Below, one piece after another: positions 4,412 to 34,433 of a stretch of DNA of 64,000 nucleotides. The stretch covers positions 62,001 through 126,000 of the forward strand of contig CAUJGP010000015.1 in NCBI GenBank assembly GCA_963170155.1, given 5' to 3'. Both the position numbers and the translations under genes were made by a program. The first letter of the stretch is position 1. The number at the start of each line of letters is the position of its first letter. The stretch comes from Bdellovibrionota bacterium (GTDB lineage Bacteria; Bdellovibrionota; Bdellovibrionia; Bdellovibrionales; Bdellovibrionaceae). The notes beneath the pieces are model-generated. The model saw only the letters and a program-made list of their open reading frames with translations, was not told the DNA's origin and searched no databases.

Positions 4412-5101
4412 TCAATCAATCATCAACAACAGCTCTTCGAGTCGATGAATCCAAACAAAGGAATGAGTATCTTGGGAGGATTCATTCCTAAACTGCCGCG
4501 TGCCAATCACAAAGCAGCCTGCCTGATGAAAGGGTTCTAACTCATTGGAAATTGAATCTCCTACGACTAAAATATGTTTAGGTTCGGATTGAGCCAAAGA
4601 AAGAGCTTTTTTTATGATCGTTGAGCTCGGCTTTTCAGCTCCTATTTCTTCCGAGGTTAAAATAAAATCGATGAATTCATTATGAGGGTCTATTTTCTGA
4701 AGTTTCAATATCTGAGTTCGAAGGTTTTCATTTGTAACAATGCCCAGGCGAAATCGCGAAGCCATTTTTTTTAAGAGCTCTCGATGTCCCGTATGAGCCA
4801 AATCACTCTCAATGTGTCTTTGCAGGTTTTCTTCATAGGCATCACAAAGTTTCAATAAAGCTTCAGCTGAGAATTTTTTTTTCAATTCTAAATATTGTTT
4901 AAAATACAACATCCGATTGCGGGCGGACACATGACCGGATCCCAAAATTTGTTTTACCAAGGATCGGGCTTTCTCAAAAACACATTCATCTAAATCAAGC
5001 TCTTGATAAATCGTTTTATAAATTTTTTCTGAATCAATCAGCGTATCATCCAAATCAAAAATAATCGTTTGAATCTGTTTTTGTTCAAAACCTGGAATCA
5101 A
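4412..5101 (-). CDS. HAD-superfamily (subclass IA) phosphatase
   Basis: A 229-residue haloacid-dehalogenase-type hydrolase, probably a small-molecule phosphatase. Motif I FDLDDTLID gives the nucleophile pair D16 and D18. Motif II is in LGIVTNE, motif III Lys in AEKPSS, and motif IV in VVGDSISNE. A helical cap lies between motifs I and II, as in subclass IA. The only start that keeps motif I is TTG at 5101-5099, preceded by GGAGAGGGGG. It is divergent from the aldolase operon at 5,344 and upstream of rfbB. A dephosphorylation step in one of these sugar pathways is an inference; the substrate is unknown. Confidence 0.8.
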   Translation of the reverse strand: MIPGFEQKQIQTIIFDLDDTLIDSEKIYKTIYQELDLDECVFEKARSLVKQILGSGHVSARNRMLYFKQYLELKKKFSAEALLKLCDAYEENLQRHIESDLAHTGHRELLKKMASRFRLGIVTNENLRTQILKLQKIDPHNEFIDFILTSEEIGAEKPSSTIIKKALSLAQSEPKHILVVGDSISNELEPFHQAGCFVIGTRQFRNESSQDTHSFVWIHRLEELLLMID

Positions 5102-5343
5102 AAAGCCCCCTCTCCAACTCTTTTTTGCTTTTACCTCTCAACGAATGCCTTCACTTTGACCTGATTTCGTCTGAGTCCTTTCCCTGAGCGCACCGTTGAC
5201 AAGCAAGCTTGCCTCCTGCAAAGAGCTTATTGTTTGTTCGTGAGTGAGCCCCCAAATAACGTATTCAAAGAAATACGGAGAAACAACGATTTTTTAAAAA
5301 AAGGAAGCTTGAAAAAGAACGAAATTCCACCTAACTTACCACA

Positions 5344-6369
5344 ATGAACGCTGATGAACTTTTTCTTAATCTCAATTCTCAAGTTGCGGAAGAAAAACTG
5401 CTGTGGATCCAAGGCCCCGGTGGAAATACGTCCTTTAAAGACAATGATCGCTTGTTGATTAAAACTTCTGGCACACGGATTCGTGATATCCACTCTCTCC
5501 ACCAATTGGCGGAATTGAACCTCCACCAACTTCGCGTGGCATTGGCTGAAATTCAGCCATCAAAGCATCCTGAAGTCGCCTATAAAGAAGCCATTGAAAG
5601 CAGTTCCTCAAAAAAATCTCTCCGTCCAAGTATGGAAAGTGGGTTCCACGCGCTCCTACCTCATCGTTACGTTTTTCACATTCATAGCTTAGCAGGAATC
5701 GGCCTGGCTGAATATGCAGTCGCACCAGCCTCAGCACCTTCTTTTCAGCAGTGGTTTCACAAGCACTGGTCTCAAAGCTTAGGAACACTGAATATTATTG
5801 ATTTTTGTTTACCAGGCCATCAACTAACCTCATCCTTAACGCAAGCGTCTTCTTCTCAATCCCTTTACTTTTTACGGAATCATGGTGTTATTCTTTCTTT
5901 TCAGGATGAAAATTATCTAAAGCACTACAAGGCTTTTGAAAAAGAAGCTCTTCAAACTTTTTTACCTCACAGTGACTCTCAACTGCAAAAGTGGAGATTT
6001 CAAGATGCACTCTCTCTTGCTACTCATAACCCTGATCTTTTGGAATCGGAGATCCAATTTTACTTTCCCGATATGGCTATTATGTTTTCAAGAATTCAAA
6101 AATACTTAAAGCCAACTTCTGCAAAAAAATTTCGTTTTGAAATTGATGGCAAACAACCTGATTCTCAGACTCCTGGCGCTCAAACATCAAACCCCAATCT
6201 TAAAAATACTGAATCAATTGATCTTGATGCTCTTGAAAATTGGTTGGCAAACTCGATGCTTCAAAAGCTCTTTCCACAGTTGCCTACTCTCTCTCAAACG
6301 GTCTGTGATCAAATCATTTCTCTACCAACAGAGCTGGCGAGAAAAAAAGCGATGGAGCCTCTCTCATGA
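5344..6369 (+). CDS. Class II aldolase/adducin-family protein
   Basis: A 341-residue protein whose first 230 residues match class II (zinc) aldolases. GPGGNTSFK near residue 25 is the phosphate-binding loop. SMESGFH gives the acidic residue Glu98. HIHS supplies His112 and His114, and RNHG supplies His180, which are the expected metal ligands. All catalytic positions are therefore intact. Family members cleave or join DHAP-type ketose phosphates, or act as epimerases and decarboxylases. The C-terminal 110 residues are not recognised. It is the first gene of an operon whose next start overlaps its stop (ATGA). No Shine-Dalgarno is visible before its ATG, which is odd. Confidence 0.8.
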   Translation: MNADELFLNLNSQVAEEKLLWIQGPGGNTSFKDNDRLLIKTSGTRIRDIHSLHQLAELNLHQLRVALAEIQPSKHPEVAYKEAIESSSSKKSLRPSMESGFHALLPHRYVFHIHSLAGIGLAEYAVAPASAPSFQQWFHKHWSQSLGTLNIIDFCLPGHQLTSSLTQASSSQSLYFLRNHGVILSFQDENYLKHYKAFEKEALQTFLPHSDSQLQKWRFQDALSLATHNPDLLESEIQFYFPDMAIMFSRIQKYLKPTSAKKFRFEIDGKQPDSQTPGAQTSNPNLKNTESIDLDALENWLANSMLQKLFPQLPTLSQTVCDQIISLPTELARKKAMEPLS

Positions 6370-7943
6370 TGCAAGTTTTAATTCCCATGTCCGGACAAGG
6401 AACACGATATCAAAAAGTTGGATACACTCAACCCAAGCCCTTAATCCCTGTCTCGGGCCGCCCGATGATTGAAAGACTTCTGCAAAAATTTCCTATGGAA
6501 TGGCCAGTCACCTTTGTTCTCGCTGAAAATCATCGCCAGACAGAGCTCCCAGCTGTGCTTTTAAAATTGCGTCCTCAGGGACAGCTACTCTTTATTCCTT
6601 CTCATAACAAAGGACCTTCTCACGCTCTCAAAAAAGCTCTTCCTCACCTTTTAGAATCTCTTCCTATTCTCGTCTCCTATTGTGATTACTCTATGAAGTG
6701 GGACCCTTGGGATTTTGCTGATTTTGTAAAACACAGCCAATGTCACTGTGCTTTGCTCTCTTATCGTGGTTTTCATGCTCACTATCTTTCTTCGGTCACT
6801 TACGCCTATTCAAGACGACAGGGAGAACTCGTCGTTGAAGTTCGGGAAAAGGGTTCTTTTACAGAAAATCGAGAAAATGAATTCGCCTCCGCAGGAGCCT
6901 ATTATTTTAACTCCACAAAAACCTTAGAGTTTGCTTTGAATGCTCAAGAAAATATGAATCTCTCCCTCAATGGAGAATATTATACCAGTCTTACTGTTGA
7001 AGCATTCCTTCGTTCTAAACCAGAGGCTGATGTTCGCGTTTATGAAATTCCTGCTTTTTACCAATGGGGAACACCAGAAGATCTGCAAACATTTGAGTAC
7101 TGGGAACACACTTTTCAACGATGGCTTCACACTCAAAATCATCCCATGCAAGTGGATCATGTTCATATGCCCATGGCGGGTCTAGGAAGCCGTTTCAAAA
7201 ACCATTATGAAACGCCAAAACCATTTCTATTGATTGATGAAACTCCCATGTACCGCTTAGCTTTAAAAAGCCTTCCTCAAGGGGCATCAACTTCTTTTGT
7301 CAGCTTAGCAACGGTCCAAAATTTATTGCGACTGAATCCCCACGAACAATCTCAATTTTTAAAAGAAACTCCTCCAGGGCAGGCTTTGACTGTTAAAGAA
7401 GGTTTATCCTTAATTCCTTCCCAAGGCGACATCATCATCAGCGCTTGCGATCATAGTATTGTTATGGATCCTCGTCTTTGGGAGCAATTTCGTTCTCAAC
7501 CTCATTGTGAGGCCGCCATTTTCACAATCAAAGGTTTCCCGGGAACTCGCCGTCGCCCCAACGCCTTTGCTTATGTGAAAGTGAAAGAAAAAGATTCAAG
7601 CCCCTTTCTTGAAGTACAAAATGTTTCTGTGAAACAACCTCTCTCTACAAATCCAATACAAGATCATCTGCTTGTGGGAACTTTTTGGTTTAAAAATAAA
7701 AGCCTATTAGAAGCGAGTCTATTACAATTGATAGATCAAAATCAAACCGTCAATGGCGAGCTTTACTTAGACTCCATCTTCAATGTCATGATTGAAAAGA
7801 AACTGAAAGTACGTATAATTCCTCTGGATGGCTATATTAATTGGGGAGACCCGGATTCTCTTGCGGAAGCTCTTTACTGGAAAGAAGTCTTTTTTGGTCA
7901 TCGTCTTTCAAAACGTCAAAGACTAGAGGGTGTTTCTCAATGA
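6366..7943 (+). CDS. Tandem nucleotidyltransferase (two NTP-transferase domains)
   Basis: A 525-residue protein with two sugar/alditol-phosphate nucleotidyltransferase domains in one chain. Domain 1 (about 1-245) starts MSGQGTRYQKVGYTQPKPLI. Domain 2 (about 265-520) starts MAGLGSRFKNHYETPKPFL. Both keep the GxGxR...PKP nucleotide loop and a later acidic strand (SYCDYS and SACDHS). Each ends with a W-G-x-P/D-x-L motif, YQWGTPEDL and INWGDPDSL. Such domains activate a phosphorylated sugar, polyol or choline-like compound with CTP or another NTP. The ATG at 6366 overlaps the aldolase stop; an adjacent ATG at 6369 is equally possible. Confidence 0.85.
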   Translation: MMQVLIPMSGQGTRYQKVGYTQPKPLIPVSGRPMIERLLQKFPMEWPVTFVLAENHRQTELPAVLLKLRPQGQLLFIPSHNKGPSHALKKALPHLLESLPILVSYCDYSMKWDPWDFADFVKHSQCHCALLSYRGFHAHYLSSVTYAYSRRQGELVVEVREKGSFTENRENEFASAGAYYFNSTKTLEFALNAQENMNLSLNGEYYTSLTVEAFLRSKPEADVRVYEIPAFYQWGTPEDLQTFEYWEHTFQRWLHTQNHPMQVDHVHMPMAGLGSRFKNHYETPKPFLLIDETPMYRLALKSLPQGASTSFVSLATVQNLLRLNPHEQSQFLKETPPGQALTVKEGLSLIPSQGDIIISACDHSIVMDPRLWEQFRSQPHCEAAIFTIKGFPGTRRRPNAFAYVKVKEKDSSPFLEVQNVSVKQPLSTNPIQDHLLVGTFWFKNKSLLEASLLQLIDQNQTVNGELYLDSIFNVMIEKKLKVRIIPLDGYINWGDPDSLAEALYWKEVFFGHRLSKRQRLEGVSQ

Positions 7944-8677
7944 TGAAATTTGAATTGGTCCTTCCTTGCTACAATGAATCCCAATCTCTTGAGTTTTTAA
8001 TTCAAAGAGCGAAATCAGCAGCCCAACAAGCAGGTTTTCAACAAGGTGAATTTCGCCTCCTCATGGTAGAAAACGGCAGCTCCGATCATTCACAACAAGT
8101 TTTTGAAAAATTATCACACAATGTTCTATTGGCTCCCTGGTTTAAAATGATCCCTGTTCATAAAAATCAAGGCTATGGTTTTGGAGTGCACATGGGATTA
8201 CAAGCGACTGAAGCTCCTGTGGTAGGTTGGTCTCACGCCGACCAACAGTGCGACCCTGCTGATGCAATCAAAGCTTACTTTCTCTGGATGGATAAAAATC
8301 AAAAGGGTGAAAAAATTCTTATCAAAGGATCTCGTAAGGGACGAAACTGGAAAGATATTTTTGTCAGTCGTGTTTTTGAATTGCTGGCACGCTTAATTTT
8401 AGGTGTTCAAGTACATGAAATGAATGCTCAACCCAAAGTATTTAATCGCAACTTATTAAATCACCTCTCATCACCCCCCAAAACTTTTGCTTTTGATCTC
8501 TACGTTTTGTACCACGCAAAAAAAATGGGACTTGAAATCCTTACAATCCCTGTGGACTTTCCCCCACGAGTCCACGGTTTTTCAAATTGGTCTGCGCATT
8601 TTTTTTCTCGTTATAAAACAATTCTGGGTATTATCAAATATATGTGGCACTTAGCCCGAACAGAGGGTCGTCTATGA
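7940..8677 (+). CDS. Family 2 glycosyltransferase
   Basis: A 245-residue GT-A glycosyltransferase. FELVLPCYNESQSLEFL is the typical GT2 opening. ENGSSD is the nucleotide-binding loop, NQGYGFGVHMG follows, and SHADQQCDP is the likely metal-binding Asp motif. There is no clear membrane helix, so it is probably cytoplasmic or membrane-associated. I start at the ATG at 7940, which overlaps the preceding stop (ATGATGA). A longer frame opening at 7841 would run through the coding end of the nucleotidyltransferase. Its place between a nucleotidyltransferase and a membrane glycosyltransferase suggests it uses the product of this operon. Confidence 0.85.
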   Translation: MMKFELVLPCYNESQSLEFLIQRAKSAAQQAGFQQGEFRLLMVENGSSDHSQQVFEKLSHNVLLAPWFKMIPVHKNQGYGFGVHMGLQATEAPVVGWSHADQQCDPADAIKAYFLWMDKNQKGEKILIKGSRKGRNWKDIFVSRVFELLARLILGVQVHEMNAQPKVFNRNLLNHLSSPPKTFAFDLYVLYHAKKMGLEILTIPVDFPPRVHGFSNWSAHFFSRYKTILGIIKYMWHLARTEGRL

Positions 8678-10710
8678 ATCCGCAGTGGCAAGAACGTATT
8701 GCCATTTTAAGAACCAAACCTTTTTTGATTGGTTTGGTTCTACGTTTATGCTTATTATTTATCGGTGGAAGCTCTCTTTTTCAAAATCTTTTTATTCCAT
8801 TTTTAGATCATTTCGCACAAAATCCTTTTTCAAACCCTTGGAACTCTTTTGCTCCAGAATATTTTCCATACGGATTATTCCCACTCATTCTTCTTGGGGG
8901 CCCTAAGATTCTTGCATACCAAATCTGGGGTGAGCTGAGCCTAGGAATCAATGCTTTTAATTTTTTTCTCCTTAAGTTTCCCCTTCTTTTATTTGATGTG
9001 ATTTTATTTTGGACCCTCTCTCGCTTTACTCGCATTAATAACCATCGCCTCACATGGTTTTATTGGCTGAATCCTGTGGTCATTTACATTAATTTCGTTC
9101 TTGGTCATTTTGATGTTATTTCTATGGGGCTCATCGTCTTGTGCCTATTTTTCATTGGAAAACAGCACTGGATCAGCGCTGGTATTCTTGCTGGTCTTGC
9201 CTTGATCTCCAAGTTTCAAGTCGCTATTATGCTCCCTTTTATTGCCGCTTATATTTGGAACAATCATTATCGCATTAAAGCATTGAAGCACATTGGAATT
9301 TTTTTTCTAATGGCTTCGGTGACAACCCTCATAGGATTTCTTCCTCTCTATGAAGCGAAGCACCTCATTTATTCAACATTTTCATCTCCCGAAACCCAAC
9401 GTCTCTTCGCTGCCAAACTCAACATGGGAGCAAATATCGATTTCATTTTAGGTATCGCTCTTATGACTCTCGCTCTCGGACGCTTAGTATTCTCAACCCG
9501 AATCAATTTCAGTGGTCTGCTCTTTGGGTCGGGTTTCTTGCTAGGCTGCTTAGTATTTGTAACGAATGCCCATCCTGGTTGGTACCTGTGGTTCATACCT
9601 TTTTTAGCTTTATTTTTTGCAAATTACGTCACAGCTCCTAGTCTTATTTTTATCTTAACCCTCCTTGTCTACTTCATTCACTTTGTTTTATTCCTTCCGT
9701 TAAATACCCCATTTGCCTCCATCAGTTTTACACTTCTTCAAACAGGCATTTTAGTGCAACTGCTAATGCTTTATTGGTTGAATCTCCGTCACGAAGCTCA
9801 ACTTAAAAATCGTTTGCGTCCCCTCATGTTAGGACTGAGTGGTGACTCGGGCACCGGCAAAAATCACTTCTGCCAAATTGTACAAGCGCTCCTCAATCCT
9901 AATAACTGTTTTGTCATCGAAGGAGATAATTACCATAAATGGGAGCGAGGAGATGAAAACTGGGAACTCCTGACCCACCTTAACCCAAACTCCAATCACC
10001 TTCTCAAAATGCAAGATCATGCCAATAAAATCGTGCGTGGCCAACCGATTGTACACCATCAATATGATCACCAAACGGGACGCTTCATCGATGCGCCTCC
10101 AACCAATCCAGCGAAAGCCATCATTTTTCAAGGTCTTCACTCTCTCTATTTAAAATCACTGCGTGATATTTTAGATTTAAAAATATTTCTTGATCCTCAT
10201 GAAAAAGTGAGAACCGTATGGAAAATTCAAAGGGATGTGCATGAACGCGGCCATAGCTTAGAAAAAGTGTTAAATTCCATTGAAAAACGCAAAACAGACT
10301 CCGCATTGCATATTCAACCTCAAAAAACAAAATCAGATTGGACTATTGAAATCACGACTGATGAAGACTTTGATCCTCTTAGTTTCAATCAAAAAAAAGA
10401 AGATCTCCCTCTTTATCTCAAATACACTTTGCTCAATGACGAGCCTATCACTGAATTATTAGAAGAACTACAAAAATCAGGCTTAAAAACCACACTGAAC
10501 TTTCTTTCCACTGATTTAGATAAAGTTGTTATCACGATTAGAGGTCAAATCTCTCAAGAACATGTACACCAAATTGCAGAAAATTTATTTCCGCATCTGC
10601 GGCATATCACTCGTTCAGCCACTCCTCCCCAATTCTATGGTGGTTTTGAAGGGGTTCATCAACTCTTTCTGCTGGCGCTTTTAAGTAAAAGGCTAGAAGG
10701 AAAATCATGA
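8674..10710 (+). CDS. GT-C membrane glycosyltransferase fused to a uridine-kinase/PRK-like domain
   Basis: A 678-residue fusion. Residues 1-380 contain about ten hydrophobic helices with WLNPVVIY, GHFDVISMGL and LALISKFQ, resembling GT87/PIG-M-like polyprenol-phosphate mannosyltransferases. Residues 385-590 resemble uridine kinase/phosphoribulokinase: P-loop GDSGTGKN at 390-397, EGDNYHKWER, HHQYDH, then IIFQGLHSLY. The P-loop has Asn where Ser/Thr should bind Mg. The last 90 residues are unassigned. The start overlaps the preceding stop (ATGA at 8674). No stop or frameshift separates the halves, so the fusion is real in this sequence. Membrane sugar transfer coupled to a kinase step is an inference. 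Confidence 0.75.
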   Translation: MNPQWQERIAILRTKPFLIGLVLRLCLLFIGGSSLFQNLFIPFLDHFAQNPFSNPWNSFAPEYFPYGLFPLILLGGPKILAYQIWGELSLGINAFNFFLLKFPLLLFDVILFWTLSRFTRINNHRLTWFYWLNPVVIYINFVLGHFDVISMGLIVLCLFFIGKQHWISAGILAGLALISKFQVAIMLPFIAAYIWNNHYRIKALKHIGIFFLMASVTTLIGFLPLYEAKHLIYSTFSSPETQRLFAAKLNMGANIDFILGIALMTLALGRLVFSTRINFSGLLFGSGFLLGCLVFVTNAHPGWYLWFIPFLALFFANYVTAPSLIFILTLLVYFIHFVLFLPLNTPFASISFTLLQTGILVQLLMLYWLNLRHEAQLKNRLRPLMLGLSGDSGTGKNHFCQIVQALLNPNNCFVIEGDNYHKWERGDENWELLTHLNPNSNHLLKMQDHANKIVRGQPIVHHQYDHQTGRFIDAPPTNPAKAIIFQGLHSLYLKSLRDILDLKIFLDPHEKVRTVWKIQRDVHERGHSLEKVLNSIEKRKTDSALHIQPQKTKSDWTIEITTDEDFDPLSFNQKKEDLPLYLKYTLLNDEPITELLEELQKSGLKTTLNFLSTDLDKVVITIRGQISQEHVHQIAENLFPHLRHITRSATPPQFYGGFEGVHQLFLLALLSKRLEGKS

Positions 10711-11309
10711 TTCAAATTTTTAAACATCGATGTAATAAAATATCTCAACTCAGCTCCTGCAAAAAACATTGGGGTGTGGAAATTGACCTTCGTTCAAATA
10801 CCCACAATCCATCAGACTTACATCTTTCTCATAACCCATGGGAACAAGGTGAATCTTTTAGAACATGGGTGGAGGAGTATGTTCAATGTGGCCTTCAAGG
10901 TCCTATCATTCTGAACACCAAAGAAGATGGATTGGAAACCTTAGCTATAGAAATTTTAAAACAGAATAATCTCCATTCTTACGTATTTTTAGATACGACT
11001 CTTCCAACTTTAAAAAAATGGACTCGAGATAAAACTCTGAAAAACTTCTTCATTCGCTGGTCCCATCTAGAACCCTTGGAGCTAGCTTTAGCCCACAAAA
11101 ACTTTTGCGAATGGGTCTGGATTGACTGTTTTGATTGCCTTCCTCCCGACCTTAATGCCTTGCAGGTGTTAAATGAAAACTTTAAAACCTGTTTAGTCTC
11201 ACCAGAATTGCAAGGGGGACATGAACAAGACGTGCTCAAATTCAGTCAAATCTTTAAATATCAAATTAATGGAGTCTGTACAAAATTCCCAGAACTTTGG
11301 GAGCGTTAA
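10707..11309 (+). CDS. Glycerophosphodiesterase-like TIM-barrel protein
   Basis: A 200-residue protein with a partial glycerophosphodiester phosphodiesterase pattern. VEIDLRS keeps the E-x-D metal motif and LHLSHNP aligns with the HHD motif of GDPD enzymes. GPIILNTKEDGLE and WVWIDCF fit later barrel strands. The usual N-terminal HRG is missing and the Asp of HHD is Asn, so catalysis may differ or be lost. It is shorter than normal GDPDs (about 240 or more). The start overlaps the kinase-fusion stop (ATGA), so it is the fifth coupled gene of the operon. The function is unknown; a phosphodiester-processing role is a guess from fold and context. Confidence 0.6.
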   Translation: MIQIFKHRCNKISQLSSCKKHWGVEIDLRSNTHNPSDLHLSHNPWEQGESFRTWVEEYVQCGLQGPIILNTKEDGLETLAIEILKQNNLHSYVFLDTTLPTLKKWTRDKTLKNFFIRWSHLEPLELALAHKNFCEWVWIDCFDCLPPDLNALQVLNENFKTCLVSPELQGGHEQDVLKFSQIFKYQINGVCTKFPELWER

Positions 11310-11360: not shown

Positions 11361-13007
11361 ATGAAATTTATTAAATCTATTTTTATTCGTATTGACCAAG
11401 TGATTCGAGAAAATCAAATTCTCATTAATTACACACTCTGTGGCTTCTTGTTCTTGGGAATTTTAACCCAGTTAAGCTCTTTTTCTTCAATTTTACAATT
11501 TCATGCTGATCATCGCTCTATCATTGGAACTATTGACAACGATTCCGCCTGGGGTATTTCAACGGCCGAAGGCACGACTTTAATCAATGATAATCACCGC
11601 CGCTCCTACGGTCCGGTCTGGTATCGCGTTAATTATCTCATGCGTCTTTGGGCTGATAACCCCCTCCTCGATGACCAACGGAATGATCAACAAAACAAGG
11701 AAAAAAATATTTACTTTACCCTTATGCTCCTCAATCTCATCTCAGTTTATTTATTGGCAGCAGTTCTCAGTTTTGTTTTCTTTGATCAATTACGGTATCA
11801 ATTAATGAGTACCCTCTTTATAGCCCCTGCTTTGATAAACGAAAAATTTCAAGCTACTTTGCTTATAATTGCTAAACCAGATCATTTTCTGTCTCTGATG
11901 GTTTGTATCTCTTTTATAAGTACTGCTTTGCTCATTAGAAAAAATTTTGAAGATAAATACCTTAAATGGACCGCTTTTTTCTGGGGTGCAACGCTCAGTA
12001 CAAAACTAACGGCCATCCCTTTTATTCCCGTTATTATGATGTTGATGTTCCTAAGTCAAAAGAAAGAGGGACTCCATTTAAACAAACGATTTTTAAAATA
12101 TTTAGCCTATTCTTATTTTCTTATTGGCTTCCCTCAGAATTTTGATTTTTGGCGCAATCTTACTTATATCCAAGATCAAAATAGGCAAACAAGCTTTGCC
12201 ACTGGGCAAAGCTTGTTTGAGTGGCTCAAAGTTTACTTTGATCAGATCTTCAGGCCCGGCGCCCTTCTTATCTTATTTCTTATCCTGTTTCCTCTACGAA
12301 ATCGCGTTAAAGATTTTTTTCAAAAAAATCTTGCTTTACAAATAGCCGTTCTTTTCCTCATTCCTTTTTGTTTTATGCTCTCACGTAAAATCAATGAACC
12401 TTTTTTTCGCTGGTACACATTCCCTTTTATCTCCACAGGTTTAATCCTCCTCGGTGGAATCATCGCTTTTCTTGTCAGTCGCGCTGAGACTGTTTTTATC
12501 GGCCCATGGAAAACAAAATTACTCAGTCATCCTTATACTTTTCTCATCCTCTTTTTTTGTTTACCTTGGACGCTTCCTTTAAACTCCACCACCTTAAGCC
12601 TTGTTCAAAAAGAGTATAATGTGTGTCGAGCAGAAGCCTTCAAAACAGAAACCTACGTTGAAAAAGCGGTTTCCAATCAAGAATATATTTTAGCCGATGT
12701 CTATGCCCCTTACTCTGCCAAATACGAAGGAAACTGGGTGGATTCATCATGGCAAATGCGGACAGAACTGATTATTCCCAATAAAACAAAGTGGATTATT
12801 CTCAAGAGCAACTATTATTCTGGTTATTTAACCAAAGAAGAAGGCGGAACGGATGGTTTTATAGCTCATGTCAAAGACATTGAAAAAGTACGTTCTTTTT
12901 ATCGTCTCTTTTGGCAAAAAGAGCAAACACTCGATCCGTACCAGCAATCTTGGAAAAAAGTTTATTCAGATGCTTGTGGATTTGAGGTTTGGCAAAGAGA
13001 AGAATAA
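11361..13007 (+). CDS. Multi-pass membrane protein, probable GT-C glycosyltransferase
   Basis: A 548-residue inner-membrane protein with about ten hydrophobic helices and a large non-membrane C-terminal tail of about 130 residues. A first-loop acidic motif, GTIDNDSAWGIS at about 55-65, fits the catalytic D/E loop of GT-C enzymes, which use polyprenol-phosphate sugars. GPVWYRVNY follows, as in ArnT/PMT-like proteins. No specific family is recognised. The start has a GAGGATCT box. It lies 51 bp after the phosphodiesterase-like gene and may belong to the same transcript. A Wzy-like polymerase is an alternative. A long perfect hairpin lies inside the gene. Confidence 0.6.
   Translation: MKFIKSIFIRIDQVIRENQILINYTLCGFLFLGILTQLSSFSSILQFHADHRSIIGTIDNDSAWGISTAEGTTLINDNHRRSYGPVWYRVNYLMRLWADNPLLDDQRNDQQNKEKNIYFTLMLLNLISVYLLAAVLSFVFFDQLRYQLMSTLFIAPALINEKFQATLLIIAKPDHFLSLMVCISFISTALLIRKNFEDKYLKWTAFFWGATLSTKLTAIPFIPVIMMLMFLSQKKEGLHLNKRFLKYLAYSYFLIGFPQNFDFWRNLTYIQDQNRQTSFATGQSLFEWLKVYFDQIFRPGALLILFLILFPLRNRVKDFFQKNLALQIAVLFLIPFCFMLSRKINEPFFRWYTFPFISTGLILLGGIIAFLVSRAETVFIGPWKTKLLSHPYTFLILFFCLPWTLPLNSTTLSLVQKEYNVCRAEAFKTETYVEKAVSNQEYILADVYAPYSAKYEGNWVDSSWQMRTELIIPNKTKWIILKSNYYSGYLTKEEGGTDGFIAHVKDIEKVRSFYRLFWQKEQTLDPYQQSWKKVYSDACGFEVWQREE
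12186..12219. repeat. Perfect 15-bp inverted repeat, 4-base loop, inside a coding sequence
   Basis: CAAACAAGCTTTGCC (12186-12200) is followed by ACTG and then its exact reverse complement (12205-12219). It lies in frame within the membrane glycosyltransferase and encodes RQTSFATGQSLFE. The stem is unusually long and perfect for coding DNA. It could be a small palindromic insertion, a protein-binding site or an mRNA hairpin. I see no second full copy in the window. Confidence 0.9.
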
Positions 13008-18884: not shown

Positions 18885-19610
18885 TCAAACACCTTTAATG
18901 ACATCTTCTATAACCTTAACGCGTTCCTCTATTCTTTTCTCAAATGACTCTTGACGGTTAAAAAGATTGATTAAAGCATCCATAACAATCTTATTACGAT
19001 CATTTTGCTCCTCAACTATGACCAAAAGTCGATCCATTTTGACTTCCATCTCTGCAAATTTTTTCTCTATTTGTGAAAAACGCATATCTATTTCAGCAAA
19101 CTTAGCATCCATTTTCCGCTCTAGAGACTCTAATCGCTCCTCAATTCTATCAAAACGCAAATCATGAGCCTTTAATTTTGCATCTTGCTCTTTAAAGCGT
19201 TTCTCGATCTTTGCGTCTTGCTCCTTAAAGCGCTTCTCGATCTTTGCATCTTGCTCTTTAAAGCGCTTCTCGATTTTCTCATCTTGCTCTTTAAAGCGCT
19301 TCTCGATCTTCGCATCTTGCTCTTTAAAGCGCGTCTCGATTTTCTCATCTTGTTTTTTAAAACGCTGATCCATTTTAGCGTCTTGCTCTTTTAAGCGTTT
19401 CTCGATCTTTGCATCTTGCTCTTTAAAACGCTGATCCATGGCTTTGCCATTGGCTTTTAAAAGCATTTCTACTGAAACAATGCGGGAGGTTATTTCTTGT
19501 CTAAAAGCATCAAAGTGCCCCTTCGTCACTGGAACTTCGGAGGCCAAAGGAACATCATCGGCAGACTGAATCACATTGAGCTTCTTTTTTTTGCTTATTT
19601 TTTTAGCCAT
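18885..19610 (-). CDS. Hendecad-repeat coiled-coil protein
   Basis: A 241-residue, highly charged protein with no signal peptide or membrane segment. Residues 1-57 include a Lys-rich start (KKISKKKKL). Residues 58-145 are eight tandem 11-residue units of the type IEKRFKEQDAK. Residues 146-200 continue as a coiled coil without exact repeats, and the C-terminus is helical. Eleven-residue periodicity predicts a right-handed coiled-coil rod. No enzymatic motif is present. It sits between the flippase and a GT4 gene on the same strand. A scaffold or chain-length ruler role is possible but speculative, and it may simply be a structural or regulatory protein inserted in the locus. Confidence 0.7.
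   Translation of the reverse strand: MAKKISKKKKLNVIQSADDVPLASEVPVTKGHFDAFRQEITSRIVSVEMLLKANGKAMDQRFKEQDAKIEKRLKEQDAKMDQRFKKQDEKIETRFKEQDAKIEKRFKEQDEKIEKRFKEQDAKIEKRFKEQDAKIEKRFKEQDAKLKAHDLRFDRIEERLESLERKMDAKFAEIDMRFSQIEKKFAEMEVKMDRLLVIVEEQNDRNKIVMDALINLFNRQESFEKRIEERVKVIEDVIKGV
19176..19439. repeat. Eight tandem 33-bp units
   Basis: Eight adjacent 33-bp units encode the 11-residue repeats of the coiled-coil protein. On the plus strand they read as variants of TTTAAAGCGCTTCTCGATCT followed by TTGCATCTTGCTC-like sequence. Central units are nearly identical and outer ones diverge (GATCCAT in place of CTCGATC). Because the unit is a multiple of three, gain or loss of copies keeps the frame. Confidence 0.9.
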
Positions 19611-27858: not shown

Positions 27859-30540
27859 ATGGAAAAATCAAAAATGGAAAATAAAAAGTTAAGGCTTTTA
27901 TACGCAGGAACACACCCTACATTAAGAAATACTGATATTAGATCTTTATTATCTGCTGGCTTTGAAGTGGTTCCCTCTTTTGTTCATATTCAATTTAGCG
28001 GACAGTACAGGATAAACCCAAAGCCTTTAGATAATCCTTTCACCGAAATCAACAAAGAATGGAAGCGCTCCTGCACCCTTTCTTCTTTGGATTTACTACA
28101 AGCACAAATGATCAATCTATACAAAGTTTCAGATGAACCCTTTACAAAAACTAATAACCCAGAGCATCGGGTTCAAAGTCGTTATTTTTCTGAATCAGGA
28201 AATCTAAATGCCACTGATGAAGACTTTATTAATAGTCACTTTGATGTCATTGTAGTACAGAGTTTTCCAAATGTTGCTGCAGCTCTTTTATCTTGGTTCA
28301 AAGGTATTGTTGTTTTTAGAATTTTTGGAAATGAAACTGAAAACTTTAGCGTCTGGGATTGGTATCAAAATTCGTTATACAACAAAAATTCAATGAATTT
28401 TTTTGCTTATCGAGATAAATACCTTTCACTTTCAGTTTTCAATGGGCTTATTGAAACTGAAAAAATAGAAATTCTAGGTAACCATCCATTAGTTTTAAAT
28501 TCAGTGAATTTCGATGATATTAAATTACTAACGTGTAAACATTCCTGGCAGAAGACTCACTCTCTACCACAAGTGACAACAAATATTTCCTATTTAGATA
28601 TCTCCTCGAGTTGGCAAAAATATTACGAAGAATTTAGTGATGCCTTTAAAAATATTCCTTTTTTAGTTTATGGAAAAAATGATAAAAGCGGTTATTATTG
28701 CAAAAGGGATCCCAAGATCCAAGCACAGATCGATGACTATGAAGAATATCTAGACAACTATTGCCAGTGCCGCGTGTTCTGTAATGTTGGAAAATTAAAG
28801 CAACACTCCCAGTACACTCCATTTGAATGTGCAGCTATGGGCATACCCGTTTTATTTTTGTCCAGCAGCGCTATTACTGATGAATCTCTCAAATTAATAC
28901 CAAAGGACCATCTATACTCACTCGGCATGTGCGACAACTTTACAGAGATGGCAAAAAGAGCGCAAAAGTGCCTTGATGAAGTAGAATATGCAATTGAACT
29001 AGCCCAAAAACAAAATGATTTTTTCAATTTTGTTTTTGGGGAAAAAAGATCTTTTAATCAAGCCACCACGTTTTATTTAACCTGTGAAAATAAACTTCAA
29101 AAATTAAATAGCGCATCTGATAAAACAGCAAAAGACATTAATACCCCAAGTGTTGGTCGAGAAAAACGCATTTTATGGGCTTTTTACCATAAAGTAAATC
29201 GCTATGAAGAAATTCCTCGCTGGATTGAAGCTGGCTACGAGGTCATTCCTATTCGAATGCCGCATGTCTGGGTAAAGTATCAAGGATTTTCATACGATGA
29301 TGAAAATGACCCCATGTACCCTAACTGGAAATCCTCTTGTACTCTATCTGAAACATTAATTGATGCTATTCGCAGCATCCAACTTATTAAAGATGATCCC
29401 AAATACTATGGTAGTATAAGCCGTTCGGAAATAGAACTCCTAAATAATCATATTGGTTACATCTATATACCCGCCTCGGTGCCCATGGCTCTCAATTTAT
29501 TAACGGCAGGCTACAAAGGAATTATTTTAAATAGATACTTTGGCTACTATAAAATTAACCAATCCTTAACATCAATATCTAAGTACTATCCTTATAATGG
29601 ATTAAGGTTATTCCCTAACTATATTTGGCTTCCAGCCATGAGTCGCCTCAGTGAATTAGAATCGTCTGCAATTGCAAAACCGAGAAAAACAGTCCTTGTA
29701 CCATACTTGAACAGAAATTTGGATTTTTTTAAAGATTTAAAATGGTCAAGAGAGAAAAGCAAACCTCAAATAGCTACAGCTATTTCTAGTATCAGCTACG
29801 AATTGATGCACTATTATAGTAATTTTTTATTTTTCTTTGGTCATCTCCCTTACAATATTTTTGGAAAAAACTTTAAAGAAGATCTCCAAAATATTGGGAT
29901 TAAAGATGACGATATCATTGGCTCTTTACCATCAGAAATAGATTTATATAAGAAAATGTGCGAAATGAGAGTCTATGTAGAGTGTGGAATGACATTCCAC
30001 CACTCTCATTATACTCCATTGGAAGCTATCACTATGGGCGTTCCAACTTTATTTTGGCATAAATCGGGTATTGGCACGGAACTACAAACTAAATTTAGCA
30101 GTAGTGATCTCTGTAAAATGGGCATGTGCATGTCATGGGAAGAGATGGCTCTCCAGGCTGAGAATTGTTTATCTAATGCAGATTATGCAATTTCTCTCTC
30201 TGAAACTCAAAGAAAATTGGTTAACTTTGTTTCTCCATCAGAAATTATTCAATCTATGAGGAAAGTGCATAAATACCATAGCTCTATATCCCTTCAATTA
30301 AAATTTATAAATTTTTTACCATTTTCTTTAACCTTGAGACGTTTATTAATTAACGTCCTGTGGGGATTAAATTTTTGTATCGAACACTTTGATAAATTAG
30401 ATCAAAAAATAAGAACTCTATTTTTTATTACTAAAAAGATACTAGTCTTGGTTTTTATTTTTCTTGGATTTAAAGAAGATACTTATCAATTAAGGCCCAG
30501 AGCATGGAAAGCTATTAAAAAAGTGCTCATTAATTTATAG
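27859..30540 (+). CDS. Internally duplicated GT-B-like protein (two copies of one unit)
   Basis: An 893-residue protein made of two diverged copies of a unit of about 400 residues (about 11-420 and 434-800). Paired segments include SAGFEVVPSF/EAGYEVIPIR, WKRSCTLSS/WKSSCTLSE, HSQYTPFECAAMGIPVLF/HSHYTPLEAITMGVPTLF, and SLGMCDNFTEMA/KMGMCMSWEEMA. The TPFE..AMG-PVLF element resembles the donor-binding end of GT-B glycosyltransferases. The E-x7-E glutamate is not fully kept. A C-terminal hydrophobic/basic tail (about 805-880) may bind the membrane. It lies 26 bp behind per, so it is probably co-transcribed. The start could also be the ATG at 27874. The call is a glycosyltransferase by resemblance; specificity is unknown. 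Confidence 0.6.
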   Translation: MEKSKMENKKLRLLYAGTHPTLRNTDIRSLLSAGFEVVPSFVHIQFSGQYRINPKPLDNPFTEINKEWKRSCTLSSLDLLQAQMINLYKVSDEPFTKTNNPEHRVQSRYFSESGNLNATDEDFINSHFDVIVVQSFPNVAAALLSWFKGIVVFRIFGNETENFSVWDWYQNSLYNKNSMNFFAYRDKYLSLSVFNGLIETEKIEILGNHPLVLNSVNFDDIKLLTCKHSWQKTHSLPQVTTNISYLDISSSWQKYYEEFSDAFKNIPFLVYGKNDKSGYYCKRDPKIQAQIDDYEEYLDNYCQCRVFCNVGKLKQHSQYTPFECAAMGIPVLFLSSSAITDESLKLIPKDHLYSLGMCDNFTEMAKRAQKCLDEVEYAIELAQKQNDFFNFVFGEKRSFNQATTFYLTCENKLQKLNSASDKTAKDINTPSVGREKRILWAFYHKVNRYEEIPRWIEAGYEVIPIRMPHVWVKYQGFSYDDENDPMYPNWKSSCTLSETLIDAIRSIQLIKDDPKYYGSISRSEIELLNNHIGYIYIPASVPMALNLLTAGYKGIILNRYFGYYKINQSLTSISKYYPYNGLRLFPNYIWLPAMSRLSELESSAIAKPRKTVLVPYLNRNLDFFKDLKWSREKSKPQIATAISSISYELMHYYSNFLFFFGHLPYNIFGKNFKEDLQNIGIKDDDIIGSLPSEIDLYKKMCEMRVYVECGMTFHHSHYTPLEAITMGVPTLFWHKSGIGTELQTKFSSSDLCKMGMCMSWEEMALQAENCLSNADYAISLSETQRKLVNFVSPSEIIQSMRKVHKYHSSISLQLKFINFLPFSLTLRRLLINVLWGLNFCIEHFDKLDQKIRTLFFITKKILVLVFIFLGFKEDTYQLRPRAWKAIKKVLINL

Positions 30541-33210: not shown

Positions 33211-33816
33211 ATGACCAACTATGAAAGAATTTTCCTATTTGATTTTGATGGAACATTGACAAGAAAAGAATTACTACCCGAAATCGGCAAGAAGCTCGGC
33301 TCCATCAAAAGCAAACAAATTGCAGAGCTCACTGAAATGGCAATTAAAGGGAATGTTCCATACCATGAAAACTTGCGAAGAAGAGTTGAGGTTCTCAAAG
33401 AAGTTCCAATTAGTGAAGTCAAAGAAATTGTTAAGAATATTCCATTATTTGAAGAACTGGCTTTATTTGTACAAACTCATTCACATCGATGCCGCATTGT
33501 AACAGCCAATCTCGATGTATGGATTGAAGATTTTTGTAGTTCTCTAGGAGTTAAAACTTATATGTCTTCAGCTATTCAAAAAAATGACTATATTATTCAA
33601 CTGAAAAACGTTATTAATAAAAAGGAAATTGCTTCAAAATATAATAATGTCGTTGCTATTGGCGATGGGCATAATGATGCTGGAATGATGGAGGTAGCGA
33701 AGGTAGGTATAGCTTGTGGATTACTCCACGAACCTGCTGAATCGCTTTTTCAAGTAGCATCACATATTAGTTATTCGGAGAAGTCCTTATGCAGAATATT
33801 ACAACTGTTGTTATAA
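33211..33816 (+). CDS. HAD-IB phosphatase (SerB/phosphoserine-phosphatase-like)
   Basis: A 201-residue phosphatase of subclass IB. Motif I FLFDFDGTLTRKE gives the two catalytic Asp residues. RIVTANLDVWIE holds motif II, and VVAIGDGHNDAGMM is motif IV, with Lys motif KKEIASKY before it. It lacks the large cap of subclass IA. The gene overlaps the nucleotidyltransferase by 28 bp, so the two are co-translated. The pair may make a nucleotide-activated compound, with dephosphorylation of an intermediate or product. Serine biosynthesis is unlikely given the position. Confidence 0.78.
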   Translation: MTNYERIFLFDFDGTLTRKELLPEIGKKLGSIKSKQIAELTEMAIKGNVPYHENLRRRVEVLKEVPISEVKEIVKNIPLFEELALFVQTHSHRCRIVTANLDVWIEDFCSSLGVKTYMSSAIQKNDYIIQLKNVINKKEIASKYNNVVAIGDGHNDAGMMEVAKVGIACGLLHEPAESLFQVASHISYSEKSLCRILQLLL

Positions 33817-34433
33817 ATTGTGCAGGAATGGGGACTCGCCTGGGTATGGGCGTCCCGAAATCATTGATTAAAATCGGAGACAAACCCTTAATTCATTGGC
33901 AACTTGAATTGCTCAAGGAAGTTGAAGATATTCGAATTGTCGTAGGCTTTCAGGCTTTGGATATTATCAAAACAGTAAGGGAAATTAGAAATGACATTAC
34001 ATTCGTATTGAATAAAAATTTTTCAAGCACTCAAACTGGATATAGTCTAGGTTTGGGAGCTCAATTTGCGAGAGAATATGTAATTTCTCTCGATGGAGAT
34101 TTATTGGTGCAACCTAAAGATTGGGCCGCTTTAATGACCAATGAAAATGAAGTAGTTGGGGTGTGCCCCACATCTACAGAAGATCCTGTCTGTGCAGTTG
34201 TTGATGAATTTGATAATGTCATCAGCTTTTCTCGTACAAGATCTTCATTTGAGTGGACTGGATTACTAAAACTTAAAACGGAAAAAATACCTATAAAAAA
34301 CTGTTATGTGTACGAATTGATTGAGGGCTACTTACCTTTAAAAAAACTTAATGTTCAATGCTGTGAAATTGACACCCCTTCAGACTATGATAAAGCTATT
34401 GAATGGGTGAATAATTTTTATTTGAATAAATGA
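33789..34433 (+). CDS. NTP-transferase, LicC-like
   Basis: A 214-residue single-domain nucleotidyltransferase. NCAGMGTRLGMGVPKSLIKI is the NTP-binding loop. IVVGFQ follows, then the STQTGYSLGLGAQFA segment and the metal-binding SLDGDLLV. The length and the N-S/T-x-x-x-YSL layout fit LicC-type CTP:phosphocholine or sugar-phosphate nucleotidyltransferases. Its ATG lies inside the HAD phosphatase gene. The substrate cannot be read. It should activate a small phosphorylated compound for transfer by a neighbouring enzyme. Confidence 0.78.
   Translation: MQNITTVVINCAGMGTRLGMGVPKSLIKIGDKPLIHWQLELLKEVEDIRIVVGFQALDIIKTVREIRNDITFVLNKNFSSTQTGYSLGLGAQFAREYVISLDGDLLVQPKDWAALMTNENEVVGVCPTSTEDPVCAVVDEFDNVISFSRTRSSFEWTGLLKLKTEKIPIKNCYVYELIEGYLPLKKLNVQCCEIDTPSDYDKAIEWVNNFYLNK

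Follow-up and report, generated by a model that had tools for sequence, protein, structure and literature searches.

A gene set in the analysed window, a stretch of 64,000 nucleotides from a Bdellovibrionota genome, couples a fusion protein, made of a GT-C membrane domain and a kinase of phosphoribulokinase (PRK) type, with a ribulose-1,5-bisphosphate (RuBP) phosphatase-like HAD protein, a class II aldolase-fold enzyme, a tandem nucleotidyltransferase, a GT2 glycosyltransferase and a phosphodiesterase-like protein. Our best explanation, with a probability of about 0.45, is that these genes form a horizontally mobile cassette dedicated to making and transferring the donor for a surface glycan, operating via RuBP and ribulose-1-phosphate (Ru1P). 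It is very probable that the genes work as a single functional system for a dedicated activated sugar, and the chances of RuBP/Ru1P chemistry are about even. An NDP-pentulose as the product is a more tentative proposal, as is the view of RuBP as an intermediate in an undescribed route to a nucleotide-activated pentulose for surface glycans that has spread between phyla and plasmids.

Organization of the gene set

Four successive ATGA overlaps link five plus-strand ORFs between positions 5344 and 11309, exactly where the initial annotation of this DNA had placed them, and its domain assignments (class II aldolase, double nucleotidyltransferase, GT2, membrane/kinase fusion) were borne out, with Pfam and NCBIfam models placing a domain of the PRK/uridine-kinase family at the end of a membrane protein. 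The HAD gene that it had seen as a divergent neighbour lies at 4412-5101 and, through its recurrence in relatives, proved to be a core member of the set:

4412..5101, minus strand: HAD-IA phosphatase, RuBP 5-phosphatase-like; divergent in the window, co-directional in most relatives
5344..6369, plus strand: class II aldolase-fold enzyme (ALD) with an intact Zn site; nearest models RhaD, MtnB and Ru1P aldolase
6366..7943, plus strand: tandem nucleotidyltransferase with two NTP_transferase domains, NTPa (about residues 1-255) and NTPb (about residues 256-525)
7940..8677, plus strand: GT2, DPMS-like, with HADxQ replacing DxDxQ (Pfam/NCBIfam and motif)
8674..10710, plus strand: fusion protein, whole ORF (GT-C plus PRK-type kinase)
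8674..9798, plus strand: GT-C fold membrane domain of the fusion (AlphaFold and PDB fold matches)
9799..10710, plus strand: PRK-type kinase domain of the fusion (PF00485, 104 bits)
10707..11309, plus strand: GDPD-superfamily-like phosphodiesterase (PDE; conserved residues and annotation of relatives)
11361..13007, plus strand: membrane protein of 548 aa, possibly a separate periplasmic transferase; homologues adjoin the sets at loci L021 and L036

By ORF inspection, the set lies in a surface-polysaccharide region with genes for polysaccharide export (ABC exporter), dTDP-sugar and GDP-mannose-type genes and further glycosyltransferases. Elsewhere in the window we observed a second overlapping pair, encoding a SerB-like HAD and a nucleotidyltransferase (33211-34433), an 893-aa protein whose halves, judged by eye, resemble an internal duplication (27859-30540), and a protein composed mostly of near-identical, coiled-coil-like repeats of the KEQDAKIEKRF type (18885-19610).

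Recurrence and mobility of the set

Within the window's own family and order, relatives of the tandem nucleotidyltransferase lie in the same gene set. When 84,980 species genomes were scanned, 26 loci emerged, which rules out that the set is unique to this genome. The majority belong to Bdellovibrionota, and the others come from Legionellales, Prochlorococcus, Gastranaerophilales, Brucella pecoris, Aureimonas and Bacteroidota; the set is rearranged among these loci. It spans Bdellovibrionota, Alpha- and Gammaproteobacteria, Bacteroidota and Gastranaerophilales, in shuffled gene orders. Since the same families lie together at over 25 loci, in several phyla and in differing orders, the co-localisation is not due to chance. 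The Prochlorococcus single-cell genome carries a partial copy, with the fusion found neither on the short contig nor elsewhere in that incomplete genome, and the Bacteroidota version retains the kinase, HAD, nucleotidyltransferases and GT2 and lacks the aldolase, in genomes that may be incomplete.

In E. coli, Hirschia and Azospirillum, the set is borne on plasmids together with a GtrA gene; the E. coli copy is flanked by IS26 and occurs on plasmids in 2 of 5,426 genomes. Hirschia baltica and Azospirillum brasilense are environmental carriers that can be cultivated. Among the matches listed, a complete or near-complete fusion is present in about 20 of 369 Bdellovibrionota genomes, scattered over eight families. 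This distribution is consistent with a cassette that moves horizontally, both between phyla and on plasmids, as the best explanation holds.

The linkage of the fusion to the set was assessed from the surroundings of fusion genes that had been found without using the other set proteins. HAD, ALD, nucleotidyltransferase, GT2 and PDE genes all adjoin the fusion at three such loci (L068, L071 and L072), all are present at a fourth with the aldolase farther off (L069), and a fifth is complete except for the HAD (L070); on a short contig, PDE and HAD lie beside the fusion (L075). One locus had no set genes near the fusion (L073), and in genome G003 (L067) the fusion is located apart from the remaining set. 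Linkage is strong, though not absolute.

The initial annotation had held that a characterised cluster with a known product, or restriction of the gene order to a single genome, would speak against a new pathway, and it named no published pathway with this combination. The set recurs across phyla, and the searched libraries and open-access papers contained no characterised cluster that matches it, nor was a description of the gene combination or of pentulose-donor genes found in the open-access literature.

Several related arrangements were also observed. A broken AIDA-repeat autotransporter gene adjoins the E. coli cassette within the IS26 pair (L062, 13045-14308). The membrane proteins beside the set on the E. 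coli plasmid (L054, 13224-14984) and in Brucella pecoris (L047, 13488-15221) share 72% identity, as compared with about 30-50% for the other genes, a difference that suggests module exchange. Sibling clusters at L024, L025, L026 (8426-12227) and L058 (8052-11208) combine nucleotidyltransferases with HAD, GT2, GDPD-like and small cupin proteins in the absence of PRK or aldolase; the HAD at L026 is beta-phosphoglucomutase-like. Synechococcus phage S-SM2 carries a homologous tandem nucleotidyltransferase followed by a GT61-type protein and a class II aldolase, and phage Bellamy has a homologous tandem nucleotidyltransferase and, by annotation, the same gene order (L059, 9004-12312, and L060, 9001-12303, for the two phages).

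The kinase domain of the fusion

An alignment of the kinase domain to the PRK of Synechococcus covers 180 residues (E ~1e-32), and D42, H45, R49, Y98, H100, K165, R168, D169, R173 and R187 (numbering approximate, by alignment) are kept in all 28 cluster kinases. In PRK, roles have been described for His45, Lys165, Arg168 and the phosphate-binding residues (PMC5241800). Uridine kinases differ at all five of positions H45, R49, H100, K165 and R187, and in a tree the cluster kinases stand apart from three uridine kinases, with weakly supported deep branches on which we build no conclusions. The remaining Ru5P-binding and catalytic positions presumably have the roles known from PRK mutagenesis. 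These residues point to a PRK-type kinase for a ketopentose-5-phosphate.

The Mg ligands are altered in most members: the window kinase has Asn at the P-loop Ser/Thr position and Gln at the Walker-B Glu position, the Ser/Thr being retained in 12/28 and the Glu in 6/28 cluster kinases. Their loss in 16/28 and 22/28, respectively, the window included, would fit a PRK domain that does not work as a kinase and instead senses sugar phosphates or regulates the GT-C domain. We consider this quite improbable, because the catalytic Asp42, Lys165 and Asp169 and the P-loop Lys are invariant, and because the variants covary: 12 members pair Asn with Gln, 4 pair Asp with either Ser or Val, 6 have Ser/Thr together with Glu, and 6 have Ser/Thr together with Ser/Ala. 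The Bacteroidota version is one with the canonical Ser and Glu. We read the kinase as active but retuned. Covariation of this type (N with Q, D with S), seen here in window positions 9799-10710 and 27 homologues, is unusual for a kinase Mg site.

The HAD phosphatase and the aldolase

All 22 HAD proteins of the set match NF053830, the RuBP 5-phosphatase model. Outside Bdellovibrionota it is clearly the best model, with up to 198 bits as compared with 105 for the next; the window HAD scores 78.7 bits, slightly below the broad model TIGR02253. Of 10 relatives that were scanned one by one, 8 had NF053830 as their clear top model; TIGR02253 scored above it in the window HAD and those of L019 and L030. 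No HAD of the set reaches the curated cut-off of 330 bits, which is tuned to haloarchaea. A HAD search of plasmids, aimed at haloarchaeal relatives, matched only the three cassette plasmids.

The window aldolase matches PF00596 (40 bits), and the aldolases of the set match models of ketose-1-phosphate enzymes (RhaD, MtnB and Ru1P aldolase). The Zn-binding His triad and acidic residue (E98, H112, H114 and H180) are invariant in 20 of 20 homologues, in agreement with the intact Zn ligands of the initial annotation. In a rival reading the architecture stays and the sugar differs: the kinase would use some other ketose or polyol phosphate, and the aldolase would join DHAP and an aldehyde into a novel ketose-1-phosphate. 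In its favour, class II aldolases are broad, the specificity of HAD enzymes is difficult to foresee, and the window HAD resembles RuBPase only weakly. The strictly conserved Ru5P-binding residues of the kinase speak against it, and we hold it to be unlikely, while still worth reckoning with.

Cleavage of RuBP via Ru1P to DHAP and glycolaldehyde has been proven for a haloarchaeal pair of HAD and FucA (PMC9700705). PRK, HAD and aldolase of the cassette could make up a shunt with this cleavage that starts from Ru5P, in which case a C2/C3 unit, and not a pentulose, would be activated and transferred; the intact Zn site and Glu would be in keeping with this. The Bacteroidota versions, which have kinase, HAD, nucleotidyltransferases and GT2 and no aldolase, argue against it, and we regard it as rather unlikely. 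With the reservation that these genomes are possibly incomplete, they also suggest that the aldolase is accessory to the pentulose route that we prefer; it could destroy the donor instead of building it.

RuBP is familiar from CO2 fixation and nucleoside breakdown. No RuBisCO-family gene was found in 12 of 14 hosts examined, and CO2 fixation as the use of RuBP is ruled out in the window's genome, one of these 12, by the absence of RuBisCO. The family members in Brucella pecoris and Aureimonas may be RuBisCO-like proteins.

Activation and transfer

The nucleotide- and Mg-binding residues (GxGxR, K, D, K) are kept in both nucleotidyltransferase domains in 20 of 20 homologues, and the two halves are encoded separately in Brucella, Aureimonas, Flavobacteriales and a single Bdellovibrionota genome. 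Both domains are distantly IspD-like, as might be expected of an ordinary, teichoic-like donor cluster for CDP-glycerol or CDP-ribitol. That reading is disfavoured and appears very improbable, as the set contains neither a reductase nor a CDP-alcohol phosphotransferase, and PRK, HAD and aldolase are not known to belong to such pathways.

The GT2 motif is DPMS-like, with His in the first Asp position. In ribulose-1-phosphate the phosphate sits on a primary carbon and not on the anomeric one, and an NDP-pentulose made from it would therefore not be an ordinary glycosyl donor. With such a donor, either the GT2 chemistry would be unusual, or the aldolase or second nucleotidyltransferase would alter the substrate first.

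For the membrane domain, AlphaFold predicts a confident GT-C fold (pLDDT 89.8) when given 20 sequences; a 4-sequence version was poor in the membrane part. Its matches in the PDB include GPI-MT1, ALG3, ALG6 and PIG-U, which are the closest, as well as ArnT and PimE; PIG-U is a subunit of the GPI transamidase and no transferase in its own right. In the first outer loop, where an acidic residue would be expected of a GT-C enzyme, the position is not conserved across the homologues, which have D, E, N, T, Q, S or G there, and the domain may therefore bind a lipid-linked substrate instead of catalysing transfer. The other membrane protein that lies beside the set in some loci could be the transferase. 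GtrA is present in the E. coli, Azospirillum, Hirschia, Legionellales, Brucella and Aureimonas loci and was not found in the window's genome, where any polyprenyl-linked intermediate would thus need another route across the membrane.

In the PDE protein, H7, E25, D27 and H42 are conserved and reproduce the His/Glu/Asp/His pattern of GDPD, and its relatives are annotated as PI-PLC/GDPD family. It had no significant Pfam match, the GDPD model included, its profile matched nothing meaningful among PDB sequences, and no homologues were found in phages. In the Bacteroidota loci a canonical GDPD takes the place of the window-type protein, a substitution that supports a role as phosphodiesterase.

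Proposed pathway

From set membership, folds, conserved residues and genomic setting, which the sequences establish, we infer all substrates and the order of steps as follows. The PRK domain would add a phosphate to ribulose-5-phosphate, or to a ketopentose phosphate close to it, and so yield the 1,5-bisphosphate; the HAD would remove the 5-phosphate of RuBP to give ribulose-1-phosphate; and the aldolase, as an accessory step, would remodel or cleave the ketose-1-phosphate. The tandem nucleotidyltransferase would then form the NDP-pentulose, the DPMS-like GT2, with GtrA where present, would probably load the pentulose on polyprenyl phosphate, and a GT-C protein, fused or neighbouring, would deliver the sugar to a periplasmic glycan, with the GDPD-like protein handling or recycling a phosphodiester intermediate. 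Enzymatic activity is itself a prediction here, as most of the kinases lack the Walker-B Glu and the GT-C acid is not conserved.

The initial annotation had proposed a new activated polyol or ketose, which our findings support in part. The PRK-type kinase and the RuBP-phosphatase-like HAD, together with the lack of a reductase, make a pentulose much likelier, and the polyol half of that proposal is disfavoured. If the pathway is correct, RuBP gains a biosynthetic role outside RuBisCO, and the cassette is a candidate route to pentulose residues in glycans of bacteria. The GT-C/PRK fusion would serve as a marker of the cassette in any genome, and the IS26-flanked plasmid copy shows that these genes can reach enterobacteria and makes the enzymes accessible in laboratory strains.

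Comparison with known systems

With ISPD/TarI-type synthesis of CDP-pentitols, a plausible analogue, the cassette would share a nucleotidyltransferase acting on a pentose-derived phosphate, and an ISPD-type enzyme can make CDP-ribulose (cited in PMC4924997); in contrast, the cassette nucleotidyltransferases are tandem and of another family, and the set lacks a reductase and a ribitol-phosphate transferase. Akin to the GtrA/GtrB/Gtr(type) three-component systems (PMC7389260), it has a DPMS-like GT2, a GT-C protein and, in some lineages, GtrA; it differs in bringing its own donor pathway, in the lack of GtrA in the window's genome and in the outer-loop acid of its GT-C domain, which is not conserved. 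The haloarchaeal non-carboxylating pentose bisphosphate pathway (PMC9700705) likewise has its HAD phosphatase encoded together with its class II aldolase and handles RuBP without RuBisCO. It serves nucleoside catabolism and is fed by R15P isomerase, whereas RuBP in the cassette would come from a PRK fused to GT-C, near nucleotidyltransferases and a glycosyltransferase. As compared with the Calvin-cycle phosphoribulokinase, the cassette kinase is fused to a GT-C membrane domain, has altered Mg-site residues and occurs in hosts mostly without RuBisCO; it shares all examined Ru5P-binding and catalytic residues except for the P-loop Ser/Thr and the Walker-B Glu.
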